From contig CP084608.1 of the NCBI GenBank assembly GCA_025917655.1, positions 248,001-312,000 on the forward strand: a stretch of DNA of 64,000 nt, written 5' to 3'. Position 1 is the stretch's first letter, and each line of letters opens with the position of its first letter. The notes beneath the pieces were generated by a model that saw only the letters and a program-made list of their open reading frames with translations, made no database searches and had not been told where the DNA came from. Source of the DNA: Chlorella sorokiniana (lineage: Eukaryota; Chlorophyta; Trebouxiophyceae; Chlorellales; Chlorellaceae). Below, piece by piece: positions 39,980 to 62,500 of this stretch. The translations under genes and the position numbers were made by a program.

Positions 39980-41520
39980 ATGAACGCACATTGGAGCAGC
40001 AGCACAGAGCACTGCAGGCGACCTGCCGCGCTGCCGCTCGCAACAGGCCGACAGCAGCGACGCATGCTGGCGGCGGCGGCAGCGTCGGCACGCTGGCGGC
40101 CCACGTGCCGCGCACAAGCCAGCTACGAGCCCGAGCGGCAGCAGCCTGGCGCTGGCAGCGGCGGCGTCGGCCAGCAGCAGCAGCGCAACCTGCCAGTGCC
40201 CATGGCGCCGCCGCCGCCACCACCACCGCCGCCACCGCCGCCGCCGCCGCCGCAACAAGGCCTGCCGGTGCGTTGTGGCCTGCTGCTGCTGCGTGTTTCC
40301 CAGCTGCGCGCGGGCCATTGCTGTGCCTTTGATAAGCGTGCATGGGACCCTTGCCGCTGGTTTGACTGTCGACGGCTGCCTCCCTGCCCTGCAGCGCATC
40401 AGCAAGCGTGACTTGGTGGCGGGCGGCGCGTTGCTGGGCGCACTGCTGGTCGGCGTGCGCATCAGGTGAGCTGGTGCTGTGCCGGCGCATGCTGGGAAAC
40501 GTGTGCTGAATGTCGCGTAGGCATGGATGGGCCACACTCCAATGAGCAAGCCTCGCTTTTTTTCTTTCGTGACGCGCAGCCAGGGCTTGGTCACGCGGCT
40601 GCGCCCGCCCGTAGAGGAAAGCGAGCTGGCCTACACCGCGGCGCAGCTGGGCGTGGCGGGCATGCTGCCGCAAGGTGAGGCCGGCGCTGCGCCCGCTGCA
40701 AGGCTCCGTGCTGGTCTTTAGGGGAGTGGCTGATGGTGTTGGTGTGTGGGGGGGGGGGGGGGGGCGGGGGGGGCACTGGTCGCTTGGGGGGGGGGGCTGT
40801 GCCGCCCGTGTGGCGTTGCCAGAGATCAGCAGGCTGGGGCAGCCTTCTGCGCGCGTGTCGCTCCCGCCCCAGGCCTCCTTTTTCCTCTGCCGCCATCTCT
40901 GCAGCTGCAGCAGCTGCATCCTTTGCCACCCCTGCACCCTCTTGCGCCCCCTTGCGGGCCCACCCACCCCACCTCTGCCCAGAACTGTCGCTCACCCCAC
41001 CACCCCACCTCTGCTGGTAGCAAGCGCTGCCTCCACCCCCGCCCACAGTCGCGGGCAAGCCACTCCTTCCCCCACCCACCCCCACACGCAGTCGCCCCGG
41101 TGCTGGACCCACGCACCAAGAAGGCGGTGGCCCTGAGCGTGGTGGGGCGGGAGGGGCGTTCCTACGTGGCGCGCGTCGACCCCCAGCAGCCCTCCCGCCT
41201 GCTGCTACAGGAGCGAGGCAGCAGGGGCGCTCTACGCGCTGCAGGTGGGCGGGCGTGCAGCGGACCGGGTTGGGCGGGCAGGCGGCGGCCCCTGGCTGTT
41301 TGTGTGTGCGGCAAGGAGATGCGCGCACCCTTGAACCACAGTCCTCGCTTCATCACCCGGGCGCACACCCAAAACTACGATGCCTTTCGTTCTCCTCCTC
41401 CCCACTCCTCACATCCCCCTTCAGACCCGTGTGGACGAGGTGAACATCGACAACTGGCTGGCCATGGAGCGCCTGTTCGGCTCCCCCGACTGGGAGCGCT
41501 CCCTGCAGCGCCTGCGCTGA
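39980..41520 (+). CDS. Small plastid-type single-pass membrane protein, function unknown
   Basis: Five exons: 39980-40267, 40395-40465, 40580-40674, 41092-41244, 41425-41520. Exon 1 is a transit-like leader (Ala/Arg/Ser-rich, few acids) followed by a run of about 15 prolines coded by a CCG tract at 40205-40252. Exon 2 supplies one membrane helix (LVAGGALLGALLVGVRI) just after the Lys/Arg-rich RISKRD. Exons 3-5 (SELAYTAAQLGVAGMLPQ, PVLDPRTKKAVALSVVG, RSYVARVDPQQPSRLLL, VDEVNIDNWLAMERLFGSPD) form a small soluble domain ending RSLQRLR. One frame slip near 41215 separates SRLLLQE from SEAAGALYALQ. I do not recognise the family; plastid location is inferred from the leader. Confidence 0.7.
40744..40797. 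repeat. Long G-rich homopolymer tract in an intron
   Basis: Two near-pure G runs (about 40744-40770 and 40787-40796) in intron 3 of the plastid-type gene. They could form G-quadruplex DNA and are a likely site of length error in the assembly. Confidence 0.85.
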
Positions 41521-42010
41521 GCCCTACACCCGCCCGCACCCAGCCGTGGCGCGACGGCGGTTGTGCGGCGGCGACGCTGAGCAGGCCGCGGCGGCAACAA
41601 GTTGCTGCAAGTTGTCTGCGCCCATGGAATGTTCTGTGTGTGCGTGCCGAGTGACGAGCGAGCAAGCGAGCGGCTGAGCTTCTGGGGTGTCGTTTTCTCT
41701 TCTGCTTCGTGTGAACTGATGCAGCGTGATGCGCAGAATATGTGAACAGGCGGAGGCCCTGGCTGGCTTGATGCTGCAGCAGTCCCTGAGACCCGGAGCC
41801 CCTGCTCAGCACCACGCTTCCTTCCCAAGAGCTGTCAGGCACACGGGTATCTGCAGGCTAGGCAGATCTCGCAGCATTACATGCGACACTCCCTTTCGTG
41901 GAGGGGTGGGCGCAGACCAGCTGTGAGGCGCAAAACCGTCGCCTGCCAGCAGCGGCCCCGCCGCGGCCGCCTCTCCAGGTCTCGGGCAGCCGCCGACCCC
42001 AGGCCCCGCT
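41521..42010. other. 3' flanks of convergent genes
   Basis: Tail-to-tail region between the plastid-type gene and the minus-strand gene ending at 42011. No coding signal was seen. Confidence 0.5.
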
Positions 42011-44407
42011 TCAGTAGCAAGCCTCCTCCGCGGTCGGGCAGAAGTCGGGCTGCCAGTCGGCGTAGGCCTGCCAGTCGTAGCCTGCAGGCAGCGGCGCCAC
42101 CCGCCGCAGCGTCCATTGCTCCGCCACCAGCTCCGGCTGGCTGTAGCTGGGGTAGCGCTTGAGGGCGGTGGCGGCGACGCCGCACCGCCGGAAGTAGGCC
42201 TGCAGCGCTGCCGCAACATAATCCTACACATTGACAGTGGCATGTTGTGTGTGTGAGAGAGTTGGGGAGGAGGGGTGGATGGGGTGGGGTGTTGGGGCGG
42301 GGTTGGTGCGGCCGCCGACGCCGGCGCAGCACCAGTGGGAGCAGGCTATCTGCATTCATGGGCTGCCTGCTGGCCAGCAATACCCGCGCACCACTGCCTC
42401 CCAATCCAGCTGCCCACACACACACACACACGCGCAACCCCCCTTTCTCTCTATCTCACACACGCTCTCCGCGCCGCCCCCCTCACACACACACACACAT
42501 TACCCTCCCCCAACACACCCACACCTACACACACACACCTGGCTGAAGCCCTCCTCGGAGTCGAGCGCCGCGGTGGAGCGCAGCGTGGCGGGCGCCTGCA
42601 GCCAGTACTTGAGGAAGGCGGGCTCCCCAGGCTCCAGGTGTAGTGGTTCTGTGGGGGAGGGGACGTGGGTGCAGGCCGGGGTTGGGTCGGGGTTAAGGGG
42701 GAAAGCTTGGCTAACTCTGTGTGTGTGTGTGTGTGGGGTGGGGTGGGGTGGAGTGGGGGGCGCCCAGCGCGTGCGCGGCAGCGGCCAGTCTGCACAGGGC
42801 CGCAGCCGCCCCTCAGCCCCTCACTCGCTCCTCGTTCCTCGAGGCCCCGAAAAGGCGACGGCGGCGGAGGCGAGGAAGCCTGCGGCGGGCGGCGGGCGGC
42901 GGCCAGATCAGCATGCGCAGCGCACGCAGCGGGGCACCTCGTATTCATCCTGGGACAGGCCAAACTGGGCGCAGGCGGCGGGCGGCCACGAAACCTGCCG
43001 GGCGGGCGGGCGGGGGCGGGCGATTGGCGTCGCGCGCTACCAGCACATGCAGCACGCTTCAGACATGTCGTCACCGCAAACAGCTGGAACACAGAAAACA
43101 AAACAATCAGAGTTCAAACACACAGAGCATGCTCACCTCGGTCTGCGAAGTAGCGGAGCAGGGCCTGGGCGCCGCCCCGCACAGCATCCAGCTCGGGGCT
43201 GGTGCTGCGGATGGCGGCCAGGTCGTCGGCGGCGCCTGCGCCTTGCGCGGTCGTCGCCAGCTCAGCGGCGGCCGCCAGGTCAGCTTCCACGTGCTCCAGC
43301 AGCACCGCCCCCACCGACAGCCGCAGCACGTCTGCCGGCGTCAGCGGCGGCGACGCCGCCGCCTGGGCCGCCGCCGCCGTCGGCCGCACGGCCGGGCAGG
43401 CCCCGCGCCTTGAAGGCGGCGGCGGCGGCAGCCAGCTGCTGCTCGGGCGTGCCGCCGTAGGCGCCATCGGCGCCGGGCGCTGGCCGGTGGCGGCCCAGGC
43501 GGCCTCTGCGGCGTGGAGCGCCATTTCGGGGAGCCGGCATGCATGCGCTCCCAGCCCGACAGGGCGGTGGAGCCCGAGGCTGCCAGGCTGGCGCCCAGCT
43601 GGCGCCCCAACGCCTTGTACTGCAGGTACGACTGCAGGTCAAACCAGGCGCGGTCGGCCAGCGCCTCGGGCCCCTCCTGCGAGCCGCAGTGCCCGCAGGC
43701 GCGCGCCTGCCTGAAGTAGGGCAGCTCCTGCGCCTGCAGCGCAGCAAGGTCCCGCCGGAAGCGCGGTTCATCCAAGCCGGGCAGCTCGGCAGCAGCGGCG
43801 GCCGCGCTGTTGGCCACGTCGGCCGGCACCCCTCGCCGCAGCGCCTCCAGCGGGGCCGCCAGCAGGGCGGCAGCCAGCGCGGGGTCGAGGCGCAGCTGGG
43901 CGGCGGCGGCGGCGACCGCGTCGTCGGCCGCCGCCTGCGGCGCCGCCCCGTGGCTTCGGACAGCGCCTCGGCCGCCTTGCGCCCGTACAGCTGCGCCTCC
44001 TGCTGCCACAGGCTGGCCTCGTTCTTCAAAGAGTCCAGAAGCGCCCCGGGCGCCCATGCCAGGCCTGGAACCGACAGCAGCAGCGTTCGCCTGCAGCACG
44101 GGGGCGGCAGGAGGGAGGGCGGTCGGGCCGAGCCTCGCGGCGATCGATCGGGCAGACGGATCGGGTCTGGGCACCTTGATTGCCGGTTCTCGGGGCGCGG
44201 TTGGACACGGCGTGGAGCGTGTGTGGTGGGCCGCTGGCTCGGCGTGTGTGGTGCGGCATGGTTTTGGGGCCGATCGCTCGCTCCGATTGGATTCATCGAG
44301 CTAGAAACGTCAAGGCCCAATTGCACTCCAGCTTTGATGGACGGCAAGTCTGTGCCGAGCTGCATCTTGAAGGCAGCAGCGCGCTCGGCGCATGCCCTGC
44401 TGCGCAT
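42011..44407 (-). CDS. Unrecognised multi-exon gene, Ala-rich with a CxxC motif
   Basis: Family not recognised. The probable start is Met 44407 or a Met about 14 codons on. Recognisable blocks on the minus strand: LLDSLKNEASLWQQEAQLYG (near 44040), AAALLAAPLEALRRGVPADV, ELPGLDEPRFRRDLAALQ, then ELPYFRQARACGHCGSQEGP (near 43715), RAWFDLQSYLQYKALGRQLG, GTPEQQLAAAAAAFKARGLP (near 43430), TPADVLRLSVGAVLLEHVEA and DAVRGGAQALLRYFAD (43345-43145). After introns come exons near 42960 (QFGLSQDEYEVPRC) and 42600 (PAFLKYWLQAPATL), and a clear last exon 42222-42011 (YVAAALQAYFRRCGVAATAL to TAEEACY, stop TGA 42011-42013). Frame slips near 43400 and 43950 fall in GC-rich runs. CGHC might bind metal or form a disulfide. 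I offer no function. Confidence 0.55.
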
Positions 44408-45355
44408 CCATCAATTCGACGATAGAGGAGCCCCAACCTGTTGCAGAGACCCCGAAACTAAGTTACATTGTCTCGCTGTAATTCACATTAGTGCCTCCCC
44501 TTCAAAGAGACTTGAGCTGCATACAGGTGCCAGCCGGTTGCGCCAGCCACGGGGTGGCGCCAGCACATGCAACCTGAACCACGGGAGGGGCTCAGATGAC
44601 AAACGTGACCACTCATGAGCAGTGCCTTAAGAGGCGGAAAACGACTCAAACTGGAGCACTGGGCAAGCGTGGGTTACCAGCATGCCCAGCAGACGTTTTG
44701 TGCCCGCACCTGTCTTTGCCAGTGCTTTCTTGCGTCGCTGAGCGGCTGCCAGGCAGCAAGAAGAAGCGGCGGCGGCAGTTGGAGCGTGAAACCGTCCCCT
44801 TGGCGTGCCCTGACACCATTTCACGTTCCCAAGCGGCGCCCGCCCCACCAAGCACGCTGCATTTGGGGGCTTGTGGGCTGGGCGCTGACCCCGCTGTCAC
44901 TGCTGGCAGCTGCAGGCGGCGAAAAGAAAGTAGCGCGGCGCCGCCGCATAAACAAGAAAAGCTCCTTTTTGTTGCTGTTTACGCTTTGTAATCTGCCGGC
45001 ACCTGACCTGCACGCCCACCATTGCGTCTCCTGCTGAGGTGAGTCCATTGTGGGGCGCAGCGCTGGTGGCTGTTCGCTGGTGCCAAACCCAAACCTTGGA
45101 CCGCTATTGTAGCGGCCTGGGCGGCCTGCCTTGCTTGGCGCAGGCCTGACAAAGGGCTTGTTAAGCACTGCTGCTGCCTCTGTGACCTGTGAACCGACGG
45201 CAGGATGACGGCGGTCCTGTCATCCCGCCGTCATCCCGCCGCCTTGGTGGTACGTCCGCCAGCTGGTGCTTGGTTGAATCAGCAACTTCCTCCTATCTTC
45301 CCACTCTATCCTCTTTTTGATTGACAATCTGCAGCAAGCGGCGACAACCTCAACC
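44408..45355. other. Intergenic; no supported gene
   Basis: Divergent upstream region of the unassigned minus-strand gene and of the small secreted protein. Open frames at 44596-44991 and 44615-45037 (+) overlap in different frames and show no motif. A local repeat of CCGTCATCCCGCCG occurs near 45215-45245. Confidence 0.5.
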
Positions 45356-46310
45356 ATGCGTGTGGCTGCCTTCATGATGCTGGCGTTGGTGGCCAGGTGG
45401 GTCGCCGCCTTCCCGTCCTGCCCTTCCAGCTCTGCCAGCCGCTCCTATCCTGCCCCCTCTCGCCCGCTTGCCCGCCTGCCACCGCCTGGCCACCGCCACC
45501 CTCTCCCCTGGTTCTGCCGCCCTCTCGCTTTGCAACCAATACTGAGCATTGCCAATTGCTCTCACACGCCTTTGCTCTCACGCCTGGAATCTCTCACGCC
45601 TTGCTCTCTCACGATGCTGAGCATTGCCCTTTGCCGTCCTCTCCCTCCGGCGAATGCTGTGCAGTTCCGTCTTGCTCGTCCCTGCAAGTGCCGATGGGCA
45701 GCAGGGCGCCAGGCGCAGCCTGCTGGTGAAGCCGGGGAACTGCTGCAAGGTGTGCCAGGACGTCGAGTGCCAGCCCGGCAAGTGAGCAAAGAGTGGCAAG
45801 TGGTCCGCCCGCTGCCCTGAAACAGTGGACACCTCACCACCAACAGCCATGCCGCGGCTGCCTTTCCTTGAGCCTTTCTTCTGCTGCTGTCGAGGGCTGG
45901 TGCATGCACGCACGCCATGCCAGTCCCCGCATGCTTGGTGCCCACAACACCCGTCCCTTACGCATACGTCGTCATATGGTGCGGTCTTGCTTCCCCCTGT
46001 GGCAGTCCTGCTGATGCCTGTTTACAGTGCAGATTGCTGGTGGGCCCAATTCTGCAGGCAGTGTGCAACTTTCAGAAGCAATACACCCAACAACCCCCAG
46101 GGGGAGTGCACCTTTACGTGCAAGCCCCTGGGCAGCAACCTGGCCGGCTGGACGGTCAGCCTGCGCTGCCTGCCGGCAGGGCTGCCCGCTAGCAGTGTTG
46201 CCTGGCCAACAGATCACGCCAGCACCCGTGCTCGCATGCGTCCAGCTTGCTAGTTGCCGTGCTCCGCCAACTCTCTGCTCATGTTTTCCGTGCTTGCAGT
46301 TCTGCCGTTA
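45356..46310 (+). CDS. Small secreted cysteine-rich protein
   Basis: Exon 1 (45356-45396) encodes a short signal peptide, MRVAAFMMLALVA. Exon 2 (45665-45781, from the CAG at 45662-45664) adds SSVLLVPASADGQQGARRSL and KPGNCCKVCQDVECQPGK. Exon 3 starts after TTTACAG at 46021-46027 and gives DCWWAQFCRQCATF then ECTFTCKPLGSNLAGW and SLRCLPAG. About ten Cys in some 80 mature residues, with a CCxxC cluster, point to a disulfide-stabilised extracellular domain that slightly resembles von Willebrand C modules. The last junction is uncertain: a CAG near 46296 could open a final exon ending TTCTGCCGTTAA. Function unknown. Confidence 0.58.
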
Positions 46311-46765
46311 ACTTCATAAAGGCGACAGACAGCAAACCTCAAAGAAGCAGCTTGCCAAGACAGCAGCAGCCTGGGAACTGCACGATACGAAAAGAGCCAA
46401 CCCAAGCCACCTTCCCACAGCTGTGCGTTGTTTGCTTTGCAGAGTCCTGTGTGTGCCTCGCACTGCGCAAAGTAGAGAAGATGCAATGCTCGCACCAACT
46501 TGTAACCATGTAGCGATGGCATCTTAAAGACAGAGTTGCTTCTCTGAGCAGCAGCTGCATGCGGGGCGGGGCCTGGGGAGCAGCACTTTTTCTCGCCGCA
46601 GCGGCAATGTGCAGAGCAGGGGCTTATGCCCATAGCCCGCAGCTTCCCTGGGCATAGCGCCTGGCAGCAGCGGCAGCTATGGTGGCAGCGGCTGTGATGC
46701 TCGCCAGTGCTGCTTGGCGCCACATCAAGGCTGCCTCCAATCGGCAGCGGCGCGCCATAAGCCGT
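46311..46765. other. 3' flanks of convergent genes
   Basis: Between the secreted protein gene (+) and the Tudor-like gene (-). Nothing coding could be supported. Confidence 0.5.
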
Positions 46766-48856
46766 TCAGCCGGTTGCCCTGCCTGCCGCGCTCGCTGCGC
46801 CGCCGCCAAGCAGAGTGACGCAGCCACGCACCCAGACCACCGCGGCCGCCCAGCTGCGCCGCAGCAGCAGCCACCGCAGCTCCTGCCACACCGGCTCCCG
46901 CCGATCGCCATCCGCCAACAGCAGCAGCTTGAAAGACTGCAGCGGTGGCGGCAACAGAGCAACGGCTGTGCAGCACTGCATATTGAGCCCACTCATTGGG
47001 TAGGGCGCCCCCTCCTCCAACTGCGGCCCCACCGCACCAGGGGAATTGAGCAACTCAGGCGGCGTTCCTGCCCTCACCAGCAGTTCTGCCTCGCCGAGAC
47101 CACCCAAGCCCCGCAGCAGATCCAGCGCCTGAAAGGCGGCAGTCAGCCCTGCGGAGCAGGCCACGCTGGGCAGCGGCAGCGCCGCAGCACACACAATGTC
47201 CAGGTGCTGCTGCAGGCCCTCCCAAGAGGTTGGCACAGAGGCCGCATCCACAGCAGTGGTGGTCGGCTGCCACAGACCGCCACCGCTGTGCATCTGCCCG
47301 CCGCCGCCGCGCTCCGCTGGGTCGGCGCTCCGCTGGGGTGGCGGGCGGCGTCGGCTGCTGCATAGCAGCGTTTCCTGGCTGCCGGGCCGGCTGCGGCGGC
47401 CGAGCCTCCAAGACCACTTGCCCACCTGCACAGATCAGTGCTCCGCCTGCTGCTGCAGCTGTCGTCCCCATTCGCCCCGGCTCCTGGACTGAGCCTGGTT
47501 CCGCGGAATTAGGGCAGTCCCCGCTCTCTCCAATCGAAATGCCTGCACCCGAGCAGGCGGCTTGAGGCTCTGGCGCCGCGCAGCCGCCCCGCTCTGAAGC
47601 CGCTGGGGCTGCGGGGGCGCAGGCGCTGGGTGGAGTGGGGTGCACGCAGGGATGCTCTGCCTGCCGCTGCTGAGTTTGTCGCTGCCTAACGCTCAACTGC
47701 TCCGAAGGCTGCGCCTGGCTGGGGGTGGAGGTGGCTGCGGCAGCTGCGCCGAGGGTGCAGCGCCGCTTCGCCTCCGGCTGGGCTGTGGCGGCGGCGGCGG
47801 CGGCAGGGGCGCCAGCGGAGCGCAGCTGTGCTGCCTGCTCTGCGCCCTTGACCCAGGCGTGGGCCGCAGGGGGCAGGCTCACCACGCGGCAGCGCTGCGG
47901 GCTGGCAAACACAAAGCCCCAGCACTGGTCCTCAGCATCCTCCGCCTCCTCCTCCCCGTCTGGCTCATAGCTGCGTGACGGGGGAGGGAAGCAAATGGTG
48001 CCGAGCCCAGGTAAGCACTAAAGATGCATCGTGGCTGGGCCACTGCCTGCTTTCAAGTGCCTGCCACGCGGCGTCCTTGTGGCACGAAAGATGGGAGAGC
48101 GCTCCGCGGCGGGGCTGGCCCTTACCTGAGGAGGCACCAGAAATCAGCTGCATCCCTCCCCTCCAGGTTGAGGTCAGAGCCACGATTGACCTGTGACACG
48201 TGGAGTGAGAGAAGAAGGGGGAAGGGGGTGAGCGAGTGAGAGAGGGGGGAAGGCAGCCAGGGAGTGGGGAGGGACACGAAGCATGGAGTGAGAGAGGTGG
48301 GAAGGCAGCCAGGGAGTGAGAGAGGGGGACGGGAGCCAGCGAGTGACAAAAGGAGGAAGGGAGCCAGGGAAGGGGGTATGTGAAGGCGGAGGGCGAGGGT
48401 GCAGGGTGCGCCGTCGGGAGGTGGGGCGGCGCCGGGAAGGGCAGCAGGCACCCCGGGCCCCAATGCAGCACGGCAGGCCAGCAGGCCGTCCTCCTTGCCT
48501 CGGCAATCGTGGCACGGTACCATCCATCGAACTTTTGTGTCCTGCAGTGCACGTGACAAGACGCAGCGTGCGGTGAAGTGCGACCACCGATGGCGGCAGC
48601 ATGCAAAGAGCAGACAGAGGCTTCCCATGCCGCCATGCCACCTGAAACGACGCTCGACAGTGGTGCCCACAAACAGTTTCGCCTCCTCCACCGTGCTCGG
48701 ACGCAGCTCTGAGAGCATAGCTGCAGGCTTGGTGGTGCTGCCTCCTGGGCGCTGAAGCAGTTCAGGAATCGCAGTCAGCCAGCCCTTCTGAGCAAAGCAC
48801 CTCTCCCCACGCTGGTGGCAAGCGCCTGCTGCCCTGAAGTACACTGGTCCGTCCAA
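46766..48856 (-). CDS. Possible Tudor-like domain protein with long low-complexity region
   Basis: Start Met 48856, or an in-frame Met at 48718. Exon 1 contains STVEEAKLFVGTTVERRF and ends at AG|GTGGCA near 48643. The next exon (from about 48544) restores frame as RTQKFDGWYRATIAEA, so the joined text reads GTTVERRFR-TQKFDGWYRATI, the pattern of a Tudor/Agenet-type small beta barrel. The following exons give VNRGSDLNLEGRDAADFW (near 48190) and SYEPDGEEEAEDAEDQCWGF (near 47970), then a long Ala/Pro/Gln-rich part. The C-terminal frame (about 47430-46766) reads TSWEGLQQHLDIVCAAALPL and ends at 46766. The exon ending IAEA lacks a GT donor; GAG|GCAAGG is a plausible GC donor. A frame change near 47350-47400 is unresolved. 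Chromatin or methyl-mark reading is only an inference. Confidence 0.5.
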
Positions 48857-49037
48857 GCAGGGTGGCGGCAGCCTTGGAGGCTCCAGCCAACGTAATGAGG
48901 CGCTTCTGTGCCTAAATAATAGCTGCCAGCGAAAAACGAAGCTCGCAGTAATCTGCTGCGGCAGCTCTACCCCCAGACCAAGCTCAACCTTACCTTCTGA
49001 ACGAGGGCATTCCCAGTGGCATGAGCTGTTGATGGGC

Positions 49038-49472
49038 CTAGCAAGCCTTGGAACAGTGGTTGCACACTTTCAAAGGATGGAGTTCTTGATGGTTGGCCAA
49101 GAGGCCAAGAGGCCAAACGTCGAGAACTCCTTCCTTCTGAAAGTGTGCAACCACTGTTCCAAGGTACGCCAGCGTCAGCCTGCGTGGCGCAGGAGGCGCA
49201 GCAGCTGCCCCGCCTCTGTGCCCTGGCCAGCCGCCGACACTGCCAGGCCCCCACCCTTCCAAACCTCCACCTGACTGGTGCCTGTTGCCCCCTCCCCCTT
49301 GTTGATGATTCAGGTGTGAAACCGCAGTCAGGATGTTCTTGGCGGCTGCGGCGCTGCGGCGCTCCGCCGGCCAGCGGGCTGAGCATGCGCCCGAGGGCCG
49401 CTCCTTGCCATCCACCAGGCAGTTGAGCAGCGTCAGGATGTTCTTGGCGGCATTGACGTCGCGGTTCCACAC
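49038..49472 (-). pseudogene. Antisense copy of the same TnpB/Fanzor-like terminus
   Basis: Minus-strand open frame beginning VWNRDVNAAKNILTLLNCLV (from about 49474) and keeping the catalytic-type Asp. It continues into a second, broken AAKNIL piece (near 49340) and ends, after unrelated sequence, with LKVCNHCSK (near 49050). The order is the reverse of a working gene: the zinc-ribbon half follows the NRD half, so this strand cannot encode a normal C-terminus. It is best read as inverted duplicated debris lying inside the intron of the + strand copy. Confidence 0.7.
49046..49164. repeat. Inverted repeat 1 (about 54-bp arms)
   Basis: Left arm begins CCTTGGAACAGTGGTTGCAC at 49046. The right arm is its reverse complement ending CCAAGG at 49164. 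The outer 26 bp match perfectly; the inner part has one gap and a few mismatches, with a loop of about 10 nt (GGCCAAGAGG repeats). Both arms encode KVCNHCSK on their own strand. Confidence 0.92.
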
Positions 49473-49593
49473 CTGAAGAAAGAAAGAATCGCACGTATTT
49501 CTTTCTTTCTTTCAGGTGTGCAACCGCAACGTCAATGCCGCCAAGAACATCCTGACGCTGCTCAACTGCCTGGTGGATGGCAAGGAGCGGCCC
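49395..49593. repeat. Inverted repeat 2: near-perfect palindrome of about 200 bp
   Basis: Arms 49395-49477 and 49511-49593 are reverse complements with two mismatches over 83 bp. The spacer is itself a partial palindrome (AGAAAGAAAGAA ... TTTCTTTCTTTC), leaving a loop of about 9 nt. Each arm carries the splice acceptor and the NR(D/N)VNAAKNIL exon on its own strand. The two mismatches change VWNRD (left) to VCNRN (right). Confidence 0.93.
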
Positions 49594-49749
49594 TTCGCGC
49601 TGCGGCACCCCGCCGGCCAGCAGGAGCATGCGCCCGAGGTCGCCAAGCCGGAGGCGGCCGCGGAGGGGCTGCTGGAAGAGGAAGCCGAGGAGCAGGGCGC
49701 GGCGGCAGGGCAGCAGCAGCAACAACAGCAACAGCGGGCGGTTGCGTAG

Positions 49750-50009
49750 GGCGCGGCGGGGACGGTGCGCCAGCAGCAGCGTGGCCAGCACCACACCAAC
49801 TAAGGGAGCGGCGGACTGGCCGACAGCAGTCCAGACCGCCCCTATCCATGTGGAAGGGAGGGGACTCCATCATGTATGTTGTTTGAGACGTGTGATGAGC
49901 CTAGCAACAACAAGCTATCTCAGCAAGAGTCTGATTCCAACCCGCCACTAAGCAGCGCCATTGCGTGTTTTGTGGGGGTGCGCCTGAATGCAATCCAACT
50001 TCAGTAATT
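49750..50009. other. Short 3' intergenic
   Basis: Between the stop of the nuclease remnant and the stop of SART1. No gene seen. Confidence 0.5.
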
Positions 50010-53000
50010 TTACCCACGCAACACTGGCTGCGGGGCAACAGCAGGCATTGTGTCAGCGTCTCCCAGCTCAGCGCCTGGCCGACTTGGGCGGCGGCGGCGC
50101 ATGCTCTCGTTGCCCTTCCGCTTGATGCCCAGCATGGCCTCCACCTGCGGTCAAGAGGAGGCAGAGGCAAGCGCAGGAAGGTAGGCACTCAATTTGAGGC
50201 AGTACAGGGCACGCGGCGGCGACGGCGGACGACACATGGCAGGCACCCTTTTGGCACAGCAGCAAAATGGGCAGCTGCACTGCAGCTCGCTACCCACGCC
50301 AAAACAGCTGTAATGGCAGGGACGGAGCGCAGGCGCGGCCGCGGCAAGGCAAGGGAGGCAGGCGGGAGCGCAGAGCCGCCGCTTCTGGAGCAGGCCGGCC
50401 CTGTGGGGTGTCCCTACCTTGGCGTTGCCCGTAAGCGGCTCCTTGCCCGGCAGGCTGGAGAGCACGGGGTGGGGGCGGTGAGCTGCTCTGCACGGTCCAC
50501 GGTGGCATAGCCTGCGGGCGGAGGAAACCGAGGGGTGGGGGCGAGGGCATGTGCGTGGGCTCAGCAGAGCGGCAAGCAGACCAAGAGGGCGGGAGTTGAA
50601 GCCAGCAGAAGTGGATTGGAGGAGGACAAGGAACCGTGAACAGCCCTCGCATCGGCCGGCCTGCGCTAGACCAGCCAGGCTCCAACAGAGCCCCGCAGAA
50701 ACCACAAGCGCGCAGGCGTCTCCCGCACCTGAAGCCGCGTCGCGGGACTGCCCGGCTTGATCGTCCCGCTCAGCACCACGTAGGGCGCCGCCGCCTGCTT
50801 CTGCACCGCCTTCATCTGCGCCAGCGAGGCGCCGCCGGACGTGGCCCCAACCTCCGAGGCCAGCTTCTTCTTGGCCACCTCCTCCGCCGCCTTCTTGGCG
50901 CGCCGCTCCCTCGTGTTCTTGGAGGGCTGGATGCCGTGGAACCTTTTTGGGTTGTTGTTGAGGGGGAAGCGGGGGGGGCCATGGCGGTGGTCAGGAAGAG
51001 CTTTGGGGCCAGAGATGCACGGGCAGCAACCGAAGGGCAGCGGCCAATGCAAAGTCCCACGCGCCCCCAAAGAAAAAAAGTAATACGGCGAGCGGGCAGC
51101 CCCGCGCAGGCAGGCCCCGCCCGCCCTCACCGGTAGCACAGCTGGCGGAAGGCCTCCTTGGGCGTCAGCACGCGTCCGTACTCGTCCTTTCGGGTCAGCG
51201 CCACCTCCACGTCCAGGGCCACCTGGTCCTCCTGCCGCCCCCGTGTACACCTCATCCAGGCCCTGGGTGGAAAGAAGGGGGAAGGAAGGCACGGCGCGCA
51301 AAGCACGTGAGAAGCGCGATCGGTGGAGGGGCACGTCGACAAATCTCGGCCCCGCGTCGAGGCCAGGGGGCGGGCAGCGCGGCCCAGGAGGCGCAGGCCG
51401 CGACGGGCAGGAGGGAGACGATTTCACGGGAAGCTCGGGCTTGCGGGGTGTGCCGCGTGCGAACAAGCAGCAGGCCCGCCCCACCCCACCTGGATGTTGA
51501 CTTTCTTCGAGTCGTTGGTGCGCCCGACCACTCCACCGGCGCGTCCAGATCGCCGCGGTCCTTGAGGAAGGCCAGAGCGCCCGCCAGGCCTGGAGAGAGG
51601 GGGATGAGGGAGGGGCGCATGTTCGTTGCTACCGTGTTTGTTGCTTCAAGTGTGGGACTGGGGCGGGTTCGGAAAAGGGGAATGGGGTAGGGGGAGAAGG
51701 GGGGCCCTGGGGAGGATGGGGCGGGGGTGGGGGGATGCGCACGCACGCAGCACCAGACAGGGGCCAAAAGCAGCTGGGGGTGAGGCTCAGACCCTTCAGG
51801 CCAAGGGCGGGCTGGTTGGGCTGGCGCGGCCCCGTCCCTGCGCCCTGCCATGAGCCTGCCGCTGGCCCGCATGCGGCGGACAGTGAGGCGAGCGAGTGAG
51901 CAGCGGTGGGCACACACCTGAGCCGATGGTCTTCTCCCGGGTGATGCTCTCGTCCTCCTCCTTCACCTTGGCCCCCTCCCCCTCCCGCCTCCGCCTGCTG
52001 CCTCCGCTCCGGCTGCGCCTGCTTCGCCCGCAGCTTCTGCTTCATCTCCGCCGCCGTCGTCTCAGCTCCAGCGGGCACCCACCCGGCCCACAAGCTGTCT
52101 GCGCCTGCAGGGGGCAGAACAAAGATGGCGCACAAGTGGGAGGTCAGGAGCAGCGGGCAACAGGCAGGGCGGTGCCTGGCGGCGCAGGCTGCCTTGAGGG
52201 ACGAGCGTGGGCTCAGCGGCAGCGTGGAGCGTGGACTCGGGCGGCCCAAGCTTGGGCAGCGAGCGGATCCAGTCTGACCAGCCGTGTGCAGGGCCCCAGG
52301 CTCACCTTTCCCTTCCGCCTCCTGCTCCGTCTCCATCGGCGCTTCGCCCAGCCCGTAGTTGTCCTCCTCCTCCGCGCCGCCCTCCTCCTGCTTCACCGCC
52401 GCAGGGCCCTGGCTCTCGTCAGGCTGCTGCCCGCCGCCGGGCGCGTCTGCAGCCGCAGCTGCCGGCTCCTCTTTGATCTGGATGGTGCGCGCGAACTCGG
52501 CGACGTTTGTGAAGACCAGGCCTGGAGGGGGAGGAGGCAGAGACAGGTGAAGGGAGCAGGTTGTGGGGGAGGGGGAGGGCGGGGGAGCAAAACGCAGCTG
52601 CCGGGCAGCTACTGCAGCCCTTGCCCCGCTCAGTCACACGCAGCTGCATGCAGCAGCAGCCCGATGCAGGCGCTGGCTGGAAAAGAAGCCGCAGCGGCGG
52701 CACGCACCGCTGTCCGCCGGGCGCCGCCCCGCGCGGCCGCCGCCTTCTGCGCCTGCTCCCGCCGCTTGATCAGCCCGGCCGCAAGGCTCTCCGGCCCCTT
52801 TGGCTCGCCTTCCTGCTTGACAGCGTTCTTCTGTGCCAGCTGCCGCGCCTGAAAGGGAGGAGGAACCGGGTTCGGGGTGTGTGAGGGCAGGCTGCCCACT
52901 GCACAGCGTCCCCAGCTGGCAGCCTGCAAGCCCTGCGCTCCCTGGCAAGCCTGCCACGGGCCCCCAGATACAAGTGCACGCAGCACAGCACAACACAGCA

Positions 53001-56000
53001 CAGTATGGACAACACCATGTCACGAAAATCTAAGCTCCCTGTTCTTCCCAAACAACACCAGCGTACCCCGCCCTCTCAACAAACACACACACACACAAAC
53101 ACATTTCTTGAAAACCCACTTGCTCAGCGACTGGTAGAGGTCCTCGTCTTCGTCCAGCCCGCCTTCATCCTCCGCCGACGCCGCCTCGGGCCGCAGCGCC
53201 AGCGACGCATAGTTGGCCTTGTTCAGCGCATGCTCATACCTGCGAGAAGAAGGAGGGAGAGGGGAGTGAGCGTGCCAATAAGAAGTCAGGCAGGGATGGG
53301 GGAGGGGCGAGCGCGAGCAGGCCGGTGCAGCGCGCGTGCTGCCCCGAGCGACAGGCGCAGGAGCAAGCGGGGGCAGCGGCTGCCGCACCTCGCGCGCTTC
53401 TCGGCGGCTGCGGCTGCGGCGGCGGCCTCTCGCTCCTTGGCGCGCTGCTCCCGCGATGCGCGGCTGCCCAGGTCGCTGCCTCCTGCAGCAGAAATGCTTT
53501 GGCAGTGGTCACGAGAGTGGTCAAGGGGCAGGTGGGCAACGCCCTCAGCTAGCCGTAGTGCTGCAGATGCCGCAAGGCCCATGGGATGCGGGCGGGCACA
53601 TGCACGCGCAACGCAGAGAAAGTCATCAGTCGGGCGCGAGGGCAGCGAGGGCAACACGAACGGGGTGAGGATGGGACACAGGCGCTGCCGAGGCGCACCC
53701 CTGGCAGCCGCCTCGGCTTCCAGCGCCGCCAGCTCCTCCTCCGTCAGCGCTTTCTTCTTCAGCCGCCGCTCCTTCTTCTTCTTTGGCTTCTGGAACTGCA
53801 GCGGGGGAGAGGGAGGGGGTGGGAGGTGGATGGGTGGGTGGGTGGGTGAGGGGGCCAGGCGTGAGGAAGCAACCGGGTGGACGTGAACAGAGAGTTGGGG
53901 GCCCATAGCCTTTGGCAGAACCTCAAAGCCCCATTGGTTGCAAGCGGAAACAAGCAAGCCATCAGCCGTGTTGGCAGCACGATTGCATACCTTGGCCATC
54001 TCTTCAGCCGTGTAGTAGTCGGCTGCCTGCTGCTGCACCGCCACGCTGGCGTCCTCGGCGGCGGCGGCGCGCCGCCCGGCGCCCGCCGCCAGACGTGCTC
54101 GGATCTCTTCCTGCCGCTTCTGCCGTGCCGCCTCAATCGCGCCAGCCTCGTCAAGCTGCAGCGGCAGAGCAGCACGAAACCGGGGCAGACTGTTGCAGAT
54201 ACAGCTGGGCAAGGCGTCAAAGAGTACGTGCGACTGCGCGGCCCCAAACCACAGTCCTACCAGCCACGCATGGCCCAACCCCAAGGCCACTACACAAAGC
54301 CCCTAAACTGTCTTCGCAATTCCGCTGTAGCCCCATCCGCCCTCCCGGACACACCGCCGTACGCCCTGCCCCCACCCCCAGAAAAAAACAACTACAAATT
54401 GACCTTCGCCATAACTTCGCACTCACCTGCATGCTCTGCTCCTCCTCTTCGTCATACTTGTCCAGCAGCCCCCTCCGCTTGCCGTCCTCCTCCCACAGCG
54501 GCTTGGCCTGCTTGCCGGCCGCGCGCCGCGCCTTGGCCCGCTCTTTGTCCTCGCGCTGCATTGGTGAGGAAGGGGCAGGGAGAGGGAGGGGTGGTGGAAG
54601 GGGTTGCGGAGGCCGGTGTGGGTTTGCATGGGTGGGTAAGGGATGCGGGGGGCCAGGGAGCGGCGCTGACGGCTCATCACAGGAACGGGCCATGCTCCCC
54701 CTCAGTGCCCCCCTCCCCCTCGGGCGCAGCAGCACCCGCACATGCACGTCGTGCTTTCGTGGGTGCGGTGGCAGCAACGCACCGCCAGAATATTCTCCAG
54801 TACCACGTCCTGGTCGTCCTCAACCAGGTTGCCCTTCTCGTCCAGGATTCCCTTGTCCTCTGCAGTAATGGAGGGGCCGGGACAGCAGCAGTACACAAAA
54901 CTCGATACAGTTGACAGCAAGAAGGAAGTAGGACAGACAGGCAGGCAGGGAAAAGTAAGTACACAGGGCGCATAGGCAGCAGGAGAGTTGCCAATGCTGC
55001 TGGCAGAGCACGCATCGCGGCGAGCCTGGTGTTGGCCTCGGGCCCCGGCTCCAGCGGCGGCGGGCGCGCCCAGCCGTGCAGGGTGGCGTGCCAGCGGCGA
55101 CAAGCGCGACAAAGAGCACCCACCGAGCGTCAGGATCATGGTTTCGCCCTCCTCCAGCTCCTCTGCTGTGTGCTTGACCTTGGCTCCTGCCAGCTCAGCG
55201 GCGCTGGGCATGCCCTCCTCATCGTCCTCATCCTCGTCCTCCGCCTCCGCCTGCCGCCGCAGCTCCTCTGCGCGACGGCGCCGCTCGGCGGCCGCCTCGG
55301 CGCGGCGCCGCTCCTCCGCCGCACGGCTGCGCTTGACCCAGGCCATGACGTCATCCACGTCCTCGCCAGCCTCACCCAGCTTCTTCTGCCGGTCCAGCGC
55401 GTCCTGCTGCTGCCGCCGCTCGCGAGACCTACGAGGTGCCGGGGAAGCAGGGGAGAAGGCGTGGGTGGAGAGCCCCTGCGCTTGGCTGCTGTTGGAAAGG
55501 GCCTGTGGAGCGCGAGTGCGCGGCGTGCAGCGAGTGGCCAGCCAAGCGCGACGTGTAGACCAGCACCGCCGCGCAGGGCTGACGTAACACAGGCAGCCGC
55601 AGCAGCGCAGCGCATGCTGGATCAGCAGGGCTGAATTGCTGGCTGCATGAAGGCTGAAGGGCTGCAGGCAGGAGGCAGGCCCAGCCACAATGGGTCGGCT
55701 TACTGTTTTATGCGGTCGGCCAGGTCTGCTGCCTTGGCCACCTTCTCTGCTTCCTCCTTGGCTGCCAGCTCCTCCTTGCTGGGCCCCTTGGGCTCCTCCG
55801 CCTCCATCTTAAGAGGCTTCAGACCCAGCGCAATGCGCATCCTGCAAGGGGAGGCAAGCAACGCAAGTGACGGCCGTCGCAGGGTGGGGCGGCAGTGGCG
55901 GTGGCGGTGTAAGTGCGCCGCTTCCAGGGCCGTTGGTGATGGCGTTCCAAATTCGTTGCTCTTCTCATTGCACATAAGATAACATTTCAGCTCACTTGTT

Positions 56001-56066
56001 CGTCTCCTCAATGGACATGGCCACCTCCCCGCCGGCCGCGCCATCGCCCTCGCCACGCCCGCTCAT
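50010..56066 (-). CDS. SART1: SART1/SNU66 U4/U6.U5 tri-snRNP protein
   Basis: Nuclear pre-mRNA splicing factor needed to recruit the tri-snRNP to the prespliceosome (Arabidopsis DOT2/MDF, yeast Snu66). Start ATG 56066 (MSGRGEGDGAAGGEVAMSIE). Conserved blocks in order: MRIALGLKPLKMEAEEPKGP, VDDVMAWVKRSRAAEERRRA, LAGAKVKHTAEELEEGETMI, KGILDEKGNLVEDDQDVVLE, LLDKYDEEEEQSMQ, EEIRARLAAGAGRRA, FQKPKKKKERRLKKKALTEE, YEHALNKANYASLAL, GLVFTNVAEFARTIQIKEEP, LAGALAFLKDRGDLDAPVEW, TRKDEYGRVLTPKEAFRQLC, FHGIQPSKNTRERRAKKAAE and, in the last exon, KVEAMLGIKRKGNESMRRRR before TAA at 50010-50012. About 15 exons. Frame slips of one base at about 51240, 51522 and 51970-52010 each sit in a G/C run and break an otherwise conserved block. 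Family and completeness are clear. Confidence 0.94.
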
Positions 56067-56519
56067 GGGGCAGCTCGGTAGGGTATCCGCTGGTGTCTAT
56101 ACCTGAACTGGAAGACGGTAGAGCGCTAGAGAAGCGAAGCGCAGTTTCCAGATGTGAGGTCCCGATCGATTAGTGCCCAACTTGCGCTGGTCGTTGATTA
56201 TCGGGAGGAAACTATGTCGGAGAATCGGCCAGTGGCCCAAACTGAACGCGAGGTATACTAGGGCCGAGTTGCATCTGTACATATCAGTACACAACCTCTG
56301 CCGGTCGAGAAGGGGTTCCTTGTCTGCATCGGCCTCTTTTAAGCACCACTCCCGGTGTCCTCGATCACCTGGGACGTGCAGTGGCTGCCTTAGCCTTCTC
56401 CCAACACTTTGGGCGTTGCCTTGACAGCCGCTGGCCCTTGACTGAAACCCGTTTCACATTTCAAACAGCTTTGTTCATTGATAATCGCCAAGGACGACAC
56501 CCTTCGGGGAGCTGCAGCC
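56067..56519. promoter_or_regulatory. 453-bp divergent promoter region of SART1 and ABCE1
   Basis: Head-to-head start codons (56066 minus, 56520 plus) of two housekeeping genes leave only this shared upstream region. It is lower in GC than the coding parts. I see no canonical TATA box. Joint control of splicing and ribosome-recycling factors is an inference from geometry only. Confidence 0.55.
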
Positions 56520-59500
56520 ATGCCGCCCAAGAAGAAGCAGGATAGCGGCGAGCAAACGCTCACCCGCATTGCTATTGTCAGCGGCGATAGGTGGGTACCG
56601 CGAAGCGGGGTTCTCCAGCACCCATGCAGTGCAATGCAGCAGATTGGGGTGGGCGGCGGCTGGCAGCGGCAGCCGCTCTGGCCCCTAAAGACTTGCTGGG
56701 GCTCGCAGCTGAGCTGTTGGGTGGCGGCAGTCGGAGGTCGGAATGCCCGGCTGATGGACGCCTCCATGCCAGGCGCCGTTCCTGTTGGCTCGCTCGCTGC
56801 CGCTTGCTGCCCGGCCAACCGCTGGCGGCTGCTGACTGTGCAGGTGCAAGCCCAAGAAATGCAAGCAGGAGTGCAAGAAGAGCTGCCCCGTGGTCAAGGT
56901 GGGTGCTGGCAAGTGGGTGCTCGAGATGAGCACTTGTGCTCGACACCGGCAACAATCACCCTGCCGCCCACTGTCCTAACAGCTGCTCGTCCAGCCACCC
57001 AACTTGGCCACGCTGCATCTCTGCCCCCGTAAATTGTGTCTTGTCTTTGCCTGTCCTCTTGTCGCCAGGTGGGCAAGCTGTGCGTGGAGGTGACATCCAA
57101 CGACAAGATTGCCTGGATTTCCGAAGATCTGTGCATCGGCTGCGGCATCTGCGTCAAGGTGCGGCCGTCCCGCTGGCGTAGCGGCAGCCACGTTTATGGC
57201 TGCTGTGGCGTGTGCATGTGCAAGTGTGCCTGCTGTGCGGTGTCGTGTCAGCACCATGGCTGAGGGGGCCATACCAGTCTGCTGTTGTTGTGGTGGAGCG
57301 GCGGGCACGGCTCGAAGGGCCAGCGCAGTGCGGCCAGCAGCAAGCAGCGCATGCAGATGCGCAGGCATGCGCTGCAGCTGTCAGGTGTCTGTTCTACGGC
57401 ATGTGGATAGGGTGGCCCCTGCTGGCATGGCCGGTTGTTAGGGGCCAGCATGACAGGGAGTGTGGTGATTCACTTTGAGCTGGTTGCGGGCTGAATCAGG
57501 CCAGACGCGGCTGGTGGCGACCGTTGACGCCAGCTGGGGCACAGCAAACTCTTGCCGGGAGCAGCAGCGGCGACCCAACCACGCCCTCCCGGCGCCCCAC
57601 CCGCGCCCTCCCGGCGCCCCTGTAGCATCCGTGCAGCATCGCAGCCCGGCGCATGCGGCCCCGCTCAGCAGCTCGGGCTCTTTAACAGCGCCCTTGCAGC
57701 CCCCTGGCCGCTAGACTGCCCCCACGCTGCTCGCCGACCCTGCTGCCTGCCCTCCCCCTCCTGTTTGTTTGTTGATGGCTGCAGAAGTGTCCCTTTGAGG
57801 CAATCATGATCATTAACCTGCCCAAGGACCTGGAGAAGGAGACGACGCACCGCTACGGACCCAACTCCTTCAAGCTGCACAGGTGTGTTAGGGCGCGTGC
57901 GTGGGTGGGGTGGGTGGGTGGCGGGTTGAGAGAGTGTGCGTGTGTGTGTAGGGGGCGGGTAGGGCGCGCGGCTGAAGGGGACTGCTGCACGTATGGTGTG
58001 CATCACCCAGCGCTGACCTGCTGGCCCGACAAGGACCCTGGCTGCTCGCCGCTCGCTGACGCTCGGCCGCGGCCGCTGCTACCCCCTTGCAGGCTGCCGA
58101 TGCCTCGACCCGGCCAGGTGCTGGGCCTGGTTGGGTCCAACGGCACTGGGAAATCCACGGCACTGAAGATCTTGGCGGGCAAGCTGAAGCCCAACCTCGG
58201 CCGCTTCGACGGCGTGAGCGCCGCTGCCTGCTGTTCGCTGGTTCTTGCCCTTGCCTGCTCTTGCGCCTGCTTGCAAAGACCAAATTTTGCCAGTGCTTGC
58301 ATATGCATGCACCTCCTGCCTATCAACCTGTTTCTCTTGCACTGTCTGCGCCACGCAGTCGGCCCCAGACTGGTCGGAGATCCTCACATACTTCCGCGGC
58401 TCGGAGCTGCAGAACTACTTCCAGCGGTACGCCCTGCAGTACCACCGTACCGCACACGAGCTGCGCTGGCGCTTGCCGCGTCGCCCACGGGTCTCTGTGG
58501 TGCCGGCCTGCATGGTGCTGACACGCCGGCCCTCACAATCCCTGCTGGCGCTGCAACTGCACCAGGGATTCCCACCCTGCCTCCGTGCCTGCTGCTTTCC
58601 ACCTGTGCAGGGTGCTGGAGGACAACGTGAAGGCCATCATCAAACCGCAGTACGTGGATCACATCCCCAAGGTGCGTACTGCTGCACGGCAGGCTTGCGG
58701 CCCCCCGCCGCTATTGGGCGCTGCATCGTTGCCTCAGCAGCCCTGCTACCGCTCCATGCACCTGCTCCTGCCAGCTGCACAGCTGTGTGTATCGCCTGTT
58801 GCCTGCTTGCTTGCTCACACATTCACGCAATGCAACACTGCATGACTTTCTGAGCTTCCCTCCTTTGCTTTCTTCACGCAGGCGGTGCGCGGGAACGTGG
58901 CGGAGGTGCTTGCAGAGAAAGACCAGCGGGGGCAGCGTGCGGCGCTGCAGCGAGATCTCGATCTGGAGCAGGTGGGCACCTTGTGGCCGAGCCAGCGCAA
59001 TTTGGGTTCCTGCTGATTTGTTGTTCGTGTTGTTGAGGGCGTTGTAGGCGGCTGAGACCGTTGAAGGGCTGCAGTGTCGGCAGCATGGCGGCTGCACTTC
59101 TTGCGCGCTGGCAGCGCAGGTTGCTGACGCGTCAGCTGCATTGCCAGCGTGGCGCTGCCGCTGTGCAGGCCAGCTTGCGCTCTGTCGCGGCTCGGCACGC
59201 CCTTCAGCATCCCCTCCCCACCGCCCTTGCTTGTGCTGCTGCCACATAACTGCTGCACCGCTGCCCCGCTGCCCCCAACCAGGTGCTTGACCGCAACGTG
59301 GAGAACCTGTCTGGCGGGGAGCTGCAGCGGTTTGCCATCGCAGTGGTGGCGGCGCAGGAGGGTGAGGGCCTGCATCCCGCCCCGCTGCCCTCCTCCCCCA
59401 TGCCTTGCTTTCCTCACCTCGTTTCGGGCCAAAGCAGCTTCGCTTCAAGCCCCGCCTTACACACAACTTGGACATTCATCCACTCTCCTCACCCCACCCC

Positions 59501-62500
59501 CACCCATCCACACACCCACCCGCCCGCCCACCCCTCCCCACCCACAGCCGACGTGTACATGATTGACGAGCCCTCCTCGTATCTGGACGTGCGGCAGCGC
59601 CTGAAGGCAGCAGAGGCAAGCCACCGCCTGGGAAATGGCAGCACCGCCCTCGCCGGCCGTCTGCTGCTGCTCATGCGTGCCGCCTTTCCAACACGCACCA
59701 GTGTCCTCGCCCGCACTTTTGCACTGGCGACGCACGCCCACACATTCACTGAAGTGTGAAGTGGCAGCACCACCTCCACCCCTCCACCCCCACCCCGCCG
59801 TGCCCCTTCCACTCCCGCCCGCAGGTCATTCGCAGCCTGCTGGCGCCCGACAAGTTTGTGATTGTTGTGGAGCACGATCTCTCGGTGCTGGACTACCTGT
59901 CCGACTTCATCTGCTGCCTCTACGGCAAGCCCGGCGCCTACGGTGAGCCCTCCTTGATTAGTCTGCAGTTGTGGCTAGCAGACGCTGCTGCTGTGCGTTG
60001 TGCTGGGCAGCTGCGTGCAGCTTGCAAGTCTACAGGGGGTGTTGGTGGGAGGGATGTGGAGAGGGGTTGAGTTTTGGCAGCAGGCAGAAGAATCTAGCTC
60101 GGCACGTGCACACCTGCCCGACTAGCCCGTGCCGCTCCCACGCTGCTTACCTGCTTTCCTGCATTTGGCTCCATCCCTGACCTCGCACAACCTGGCGCAC
60201 CCGCCTTCCACTTCGCCCTGTCCCGCCTCATGTGCGGTGTGAACCCCCCGATTCCCCCCACCCCCACCCCCTCCGATCCCCCACCCACCCCACCCCACCC
60301 CACCCACCTCCCGCCCCACACACATGAACACACACGCCACAACACCTCGCCCCCTTACGCCCGCTGTGCAGGCGTCGTCACGCTGCCCTTCTCGGTGCGC
60401 GAGGGCATCAACATCTTCCTGGCCGGCTTTGTGCCGACCGAGAACCTGCGCTTCCGCGAGGAGGCACTCACCTTCAAGGTGGGGGCTGGCGCAGGGCCTC
60501 TTGAGTGTGTGCTGTGTTGTGGGTGTATAGTTTGAGCAATATTCAGAGAGCGGCACTCTGAAGCAGCGGGACGGGGCCTGTGGCGAGCCTGCTCTGGCTC
60601 TTGCCCCCAATCGATCGGCACAAAACCAGACCAAATCCTGGTTTATTGTTACATGCCTTGCCAGGTTTCGGACCAGGGGACCGAGGGCGACGAGGAGCAG
60701 AAGAAGTTCTTGAACTACAAGTACCCGGCCATGACGAAAACGCAGGGCAACTTCACGCTGCACGTGAGACGCACCCGCTGTGCCTGCCGTGCCTGCCGCG
60801 CCCTGGCTGTGCATGCCTGCATCAACGGGATGATCTCGGCACCCCCGCTGCCCCCTGCACAGGTTGAGCCCGGCGAGTTCACTGACAGCGAGATCATCGT
60901 GATGCTTGGGGAGAACGGCACCGGCAAGACCACCTTCATCCGCATGCTGGCGGGCATGCTGAAGCCAGGTGGGTTATCAAACTCTCCCTGCCCACAGTTC
61001 AAGCGGTTACGTTGGGAGCTGTCGCTTTCTGCATCCCTGCCCACAGTTCAAGCGGTTACGTTGGGAGCTGTCGCTTTCTGCACTGTAATAACACCACACA
61101 CATCTGGCATTGTCCGTCAACTTTTCAGCCCCCCTTCCCCCCCAAAAAAGAAAGAAGGAATTAAATCTAAAAACTTCCCCTCCTCCCTATGCTCCTGTGT
61201 TGGTGCAGACAACGAGCTGGAGGTGGAGCTGGACGAGTTTGCGGTGTCGTACAAGCCGCAGAAAATCTCGCCCAAGTTCCCGGGCACGGTGCGGGACCTG
61301 CTGCACAAGCGCATCCGGGACGCGTACCTTCACCCCGGCTTCCAGGTGGGCGGGCGGCAGGTGGCAGGCCCCTGCTGGGCCCGGCTTGAGTCTGACTCTC
61401 GAAGGATGTGGGTGCTCTGTTGGAGCGTGGTGGGGCGATGGGAGTGTGAGAGGGGTATGCCTAGGCAGGCGCTTGGAGAAGGGCGCTGCCTGTGTTCCTT
61501 CCTCCAAAGCTTGCGCGGTCTGCAGCAGCGGCAGCACCTGGCATTCAACTCGGGCCACCAGCGCCGCCGCCGCGCAGCCACCGCCACACGAGCAGGCTTA
61601 TCTGCACAGCGGGCGGGGCGCCGGTGTGCTGAGTGGCAGTCCGCCTTCCCACCCTCCCTGCCAACCGTTTCTCGCTGCTGCCGCAGGCGGATGTGATGAA
61701 GCCGCTGTCGATCGAGCACCTGATGGATAACGACGTGCAGACGCTGTCGGGAGGTGGGTAGAAGCGTCAACAAGCCTGTCGCTGCGTCTGTTCTGCCTTC
61801 ATCAGACGAGCAGGGCATCAGCGGCATGTGTCTCCCAAATTCTCCTGCCTGGCTGTTCTGACGGGACGGACGCCGAGCATTGCAAACACGGCACTCGGCA
61901 TTGGCCGCGGCGCCGCCAGCCGGGCCCTGCATCCCCGGGCCTTGCACCAGATCACCCTTTAACATCACACCCACCCACCAAACTCTGCTCGTGGTCGACC
62001 GATCCTAATGCAGGCGAGCTGCAGCGCGTGGCCATCACGCTGTGCCTGGGCCAGCCCGCCAACGTGTACCTGATTGACGAGCCGAGCGCCTACCTGGATT
62101 CGGAGCAGCGCATCATGGCCGCCAAGGTCATCAAGCGGTGAGCGGGGCCTGCTTGCGCTGCGTGGATGGGGTGGAGGAGATCCCCCTCTGCGTCTGCCGT
62201 TGCTGTGGCGGCGGCAGGGCGGGTGGGGAGGGCTGCGGATGGACGCGCTGCAAGCGTGGGGAGGCAGGGGTTGGTAGCAGCCCGCAAGAGCTGCTATCAA
62301 GAGCAGGTTCCGGGAAAAGCGTTGCAGTGCCCGCCTGCCCCTCACTCCCGCTTGCCCGGCCCCCTTGCGGCATTCACGACCCTCCCTCTGCCCCCACCGC
62401 CGCCACCTTCCGCCCAGCTTCATCATGCACTCCAAGAAGACGGCGTTCATCGTGGAGCACGATTTCATCATGGCAGCCTACCTGGCAGACAGGTGTGTGG

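Follow-up and report, generated by a model that had tools for sequence, protein, structure and literature searches.

The 3' end of an apparently dead Fanzor1 gene in Chlorella sorokiniana: probable rearrangement through fold-back or template switching

How did one short stretch of the Chlorella sorokiniana genome come to carry the end of a nuclease gene as several pieces in both orientations? The window, that is, the whole stretch of 64,000 nucleotides that was analyzed (contig C7, 248001-312000), belongs to a 38.8-Mb genome of 15 contigs, and the G+C content was ~66%. The first-pass annotation of the window described a TnpB/Fanzor-type terminus broken into nested copies, and proposed that strands had been switched repeatedly at one site, possibly while breaks that the element had made were being repaired.

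The mosaic of inverted and direct copies was confirmed. Between 49046 and 49749, two Fanzor1 exon pieces (A and B) recur with five orientation changes, in the order antisense A; sense A with the intron and an exon B start; a 20-nt inverted core; a sense tail; antisense B; and sense B to the stop (Table 1). All five changes fall in 49046-49639, which supports repeated switching as a description of these ~600 bases. A sequence search located both of the annotated inverted copies of the DNA encoding KVCNHCSK (plus strand, 49140-49160; minus strand, 49050-49070). The acceptor TTCAGGTGTG lies at 49309 and 49511 on the plus strand and at 49468-49477 on the minus strand, within a base or two of the annotated places. 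The NAAKNIL core was likewise present as sense (49537-49556), antisense (49432-49451) and inverted stub (49327-49346), but the stub has 20 nt from 49327 and not 19 from 49328. The block that was annotated as direct copies at 49351 and 49597 was also recovered, with GCGCTGCGGC starting at these two positions and GCATGCGCCCGAG at 49383 and 49626. In 49029-49749, exact inverted matches reach 66 nt (49394-49459 with 49529-49594) and direct matches reach 20 nt. The maxima in 500 dinucleotide-preserving shuffles were 20 and 14 nt, respectively, each obtained in one shuffle.

Table 1. Pieces of the Fanzor1 relic in the window. C2 is the contig that carries the related relic.
Piece	Position	Strand	Basis
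Antisense exon A piece (KVCNHCSK), palindrome 1 left arm	49046..49100	-	27-nt exact inverted match 49046-49072 / 49138-49164; fold z -14.5
Sense exon A piece (..RPNVENSFLLKVCNHCSK) to putative GT donor at 49164	49103..49163	+	Alignment to C2 relic, from position 6350 of C2 stretch
Putative original intron, 150 bp (136 bp in C2 relic)	49164..49313	+	49111-49254 vs C2 stretch 6350-6494: 76.7% (146 columns); splicing predicted
Exon B start, first place (TTCAG acceptor + 13 nt)	49309..49326	+	17/18 identical to 49511-49528
Inverted 20-nt exon B core (NAAKNIL stub)	49327..49346	-	Exact inverted match to 49537-49556
Direct copy of exon B tail	49351..49396	+	vs 49597-49639: 3/43 differ, plus 3-nt gap
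Antisense exon B + pyrimidine tract, palindrome 2 left arm	49394..49488	-	2/84 differ from 49511-49594
Sense exon B + pyrimidine tract to stop (VCNRNVNAAKNILTLLNCLVDGKERP...), palindrome 2 right arm	49499..49749	+	Open frame of 90 aa, end 49749; C2 homology 49513-49784, 75.4% (285 columns)

The sense copy of exon A starts at the center of palindrome 1, GGCCAAGAGGCC. The junction TTCAG/GTGTG, found first at 49309, probably marks where exon B originally started, because the intron that it would make is close in length to that of the C2 relic. Antisense B is 88.9% identical to C2 over 81 bp and, like C2, keeps W and D of WNRD; sense B reads CNRN at the place where antisense B and C2 have WNRD, and thus the Asp of the RD motif was lost on the sense strand. 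Two other origins of the antisense pieces were rejected. A single inverted copy of A-intron-B does not fit a minus-strand order of B then A, and a cDNA origin does not fit a pyrimidine tract that continues beyond the acceptor in antisense B, or an antisense A that stops one base past the donor with no exon B after it.

The identity of these pieces was supported through a relative. A DNA search of the genome found one other related place, C2:2382349-2382759, and a protein search found C2, the window locus, and one weak place on C1 (E 0.129). The C2 exons, joined across the predicted intron, matched PF07282 (Cas12f1-like TNB; curated cut-off 26.3 bits) at 41.4 bits (E 1.6e-10), and the first exon frame alone reached 14.7 bits. 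The joined window pieces, a composite, scored 25.6 bits, just below the cut-off, and the antisense frame scored 11.7 bits (E 0.31); the two sense frames alone matched no Pfam family, and the 90-aa exon B frame matched no solved structure in a PDB search. The best of the six PDB matches of C2 at E ≤ 1 were the Fanzor1 proteins of Parasitella parasitica (E 0.0016) and Spizellomyces punctatus (E 0.0029), and the alignment includes WNRD and extends almost to the query's end. These E-values are modest, and the Pfam match is the stronger evidence for the family. Taken through the C2 relative, the annotated TnpB/Fanzor-type C-terminus is therefore supported, and the pieces appear to be of Fanzor1 type.

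Fanzor1 and TnpB proteins contain the motif [TS][TS]xx, a C4 zinc finger, and then RD, according to passages of PMC3627910. C2 has TSSHCSKC..CNHC..WNRD, and its zinc ribbon, WNRD and LNCL.EG.ERP tail align with Fanzor1 of Parasitella and Spizellomyces. The window copy differs in being a scrambled 3' fragment in which the first CxxC is missing and RD has become RN; of the motif, the sense copy retains only CNHC and NRN, antisense B keeps WNRD, and the complete [TS][TS]xx-C4-RD motif is absent. The sense homology to C2 starts at 49111, and the window holds only the 3' end, with neither the catalytic upstream part nor a full-length gene found there. By eye, the C2 relic itself seems to be broken by frame shifts, and two C2 frames upstream had no Fanzor match in the PDB. 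Outside the relic, window positions 40001-60000 gave only two short DNA matches to C2 at E ≤ 1e-3 (47708-47804 and 54018-54090), both to a repeat of alanine codons and taken as low complexity. Positions 5277-5474 of the C2 stretch, just upstream of the Fanzor relic, consist of a ~65-bp tandem repeat that is rich in alanine codons.

An intact Fanzor parent was not found by DNA, protein, PF07282 or PF01385 searches of the genome. In place of the full-length copy for which the annotation proposed a search with the exons and profiles, the searches found two places, C2 and the 3' fragment of the window, neither of them intact. The PF07282 search gave nothing above the cut-off and also missed C2 and the window locus, where the domain is split by an intron; another intron-split Fanzor copy could therefore be missed in the same way. 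Below the cut-off, PF07282 matched C4:1010111-1010200 (24.1 bits, one internal stop) and C3:922212 (12.4 bits), and PF01385 matched one place on C13 (16.1 bits). Three forward frames at C4:1010111 were read and looked like chance, and a sub-threshold Mcm10 match of a 100-aa query (13.4 bits) was also taken as chance. In a search for viral relatives, 13 stretches matched a pattern and none was confirmed.

Self-comparison placed palindrome 1 at 49046-49164 and palindrome 2 at 49361-49627. In the outer part of the latter, the two copies of the direct-repeat tail pair imperfectly, and the true arms are 49394-49488 and 49499-49594. A sample of 25 stretches and 301,224 bases (the window, four selected stretches, and 20 taken at spaced positions on C1 and C2; ~1.9 kb was counted twice, as one stretch overlaps the window) contained seven near-palindromes with E ≤ 1e-4 and arms <1000 bases apart. 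The two described here were the strongest (302 and 129 bits), and the other five reached 44-50 bits. Under the same criteria, the C2 relic had no palindrome. Folded as RNA, 49355-49633 reached -243.2 kcal/mol (z -23.0) and 49040-49170 reached -94.7 kcal/mol (z -14.5), and none of 200 shuffles was as good in either case. The hairpin loops are ~12 and ~10 nt.

Across five pairs of copies within the mosaic, 11 of 218 positions differ, with gaps left out (A arms, 5/53; B arms, 2/84; tails, 3/43; exon starts, 1/18; core, 0/20), and no heterogeneity was detectable among the pairs (p = 0.31). The comparison of A with B arms gave no evidence of different ages for the two palindromes (p = 0.11). Divergence from C2, in contrast, amounts to 23-25% of columns in the sense copies, 16% in antisense A and 11% in antisense B. 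The mosaic therefore formed after the relics separated. In the B arms, both differences are sense-side changes, at sites where C2 has the state of antisense B. The five differences of the A arms are made up of two sense-side changes, two antisense-side changes and one that could not be polarized. This pattern is as expected without selection.

We consider it likely that DNA synthesis with local fold-back or template switching rearranged the 3' end of a dead Fanzor1 gene in the nuclear genome. At a break or a stalled fork, a DNA 3' end would fold on short self-complementary sites (GGCC near 49105 and the pyrimidine tract near 49494) and would then copy its own strand, which could yield the inverted duplication of exon A and the sense-antisense-sense set of exon B; one further switch would leave the 20-nt inverted stub. 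The polymerase mechanism, the initiating lesion and the choice between one event and several are what we infer here, and a single multi-switch event is possible. With ~200 bp between them, two palindromes of this strength are unlikely to have arisen independently by chance, and the mechanism must therefore account for their clustering. Clear microhomology occurs at one junction only, where AGG (49394-49396) is common to the exon B tail copy and antisense B; none was present at 49326/49327. The TTTC tract that flanks palindrome 2 is absent upstream of the first exon B start, which leaves one piece unexplained. In passages of PMC7467729, foldback inversions of yeast involve small-loop hairpins of <15 nt with stems down to 4 bp, and the loops of 12 and 10 nt here are similarly small. 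Human DUP-TRP/INV-DUP junctions share 0-4 bp, and in one case 47 bp, in the rows shown in PMC10766186, and these rearrangements have the same sense-antisense-sense order and few junction bases in common. The foldback, template-switch and DUP-TRP/INV-DUP systems of these two papers, however, involve kilobases, whereas the pieces here are 20-100 bp, with several nested in one 700-bp relic. The literature searches found no paper linking Fanzor to foldback, or to palindromes and inverted duplication.

Inverted arms with short loops are a known artefact of long reads, and the arms and loops of the window resemble it. An assembly or read artefact from inverted chimeric reads is nevertheless extremely unlikely, because a single read folded back on itself would yield neither the 11 differences in 218 positions between the copies nor an antisense B that retains the C2 state at the two sites where the B arms differ. 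It is also very unlikely that the rearrangement arose when breaks cut by the Fanzor nuclease were repaired. The rearranged stretch is indeed a Fanzor relic, and no palindrome this strong occurred elsewhere in the 301 kb examined; but the targets of Fanzor and TnpB nucleases lie at the flanks of their elements and are not known to lie in last exons, no element boundary was recognized at the switch points, genome searches found no intact nuclease, and the C2 relic carries no palindrome. This suggestion of the first-pass annotation thus gained no positive support.

The stability of the hairpins agrees with another reading, in which the inverted duplication of Fanzor exons is a young miRNA- or siRNA-like locus whose transcript is cut by Dicer into small RNAs against Fanzor mRNAs. 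Inverted duplication is one origin of miRNA genes in Arabidopsis (passages of PMC5511227), and their hairpins of coding-exon copies resemble the predicted ones described here. The genome has matches above the cut-offs for Piwi (34.1 bits) and Dicer-dimer (33.3 bits) domains and two for RNase III on C3, as well as one RNase III match below the cut-off on C1, ~4.5 kb from the Dicer-dimer match. Moreover, both arms and C2 carry the same 22-mer of exon A without any change, and a genome search with up to three mismatches returned these three places only (reversed control, 0). However, simulation gave a chance of ~0.24 for 22 consecutive identities in 400 positions that are 77% identical, antisense B has only 88.9% identity to C2, both B-arm differences break a pair, and of the five in the A arms two leave G-U and three break the pair. 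Genome searches also found no working Fanzor target, and we regard a hairpin-RNA locus as improbable. A hairpin gene made by inverted duplication of the last Fanzor exons might once have fed the Dicer and Argonaute pathway of the host and so have silenced copies of Fanzor. This would account for the presence of dead copies only, but it is slightly less probable again.

The locus is a clear case, on a small scale, of repeated and nested strand switching within a single dead gene, and the unrearranged relative on C2 in the same genome allows the changes to be polarized. If the hairpins were transcribed, RNA interference would be tied to the loss of a family of RNA-guided nucleases. A table in PMC3627910 lists one Fanzor1 in Chlorella vulgaris NJ-7 and five in Chlamydomonas reinhardtii. 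No such element as the copy-rich one of Auxenochlorella, as described in parts of PMC12633428, is present here. Matches to SART-1, a tri-snRNP protein, on the minus strand at 55125-55430 (56 bits, above the cut-off) and 51130-51207 (25.1 bits, below it) place the relic downstream of a splicing-factor gene, in convergent orientation. Seven further open frames in the vicinity gave no match to Pfam at 0.01. The introns, together with the SART-1 and Dicer-type matches, point to a eukaryotic host. Upstream of the relic, positions 48200-48400 form a purine-rich stretch that resembles a GA repeat.
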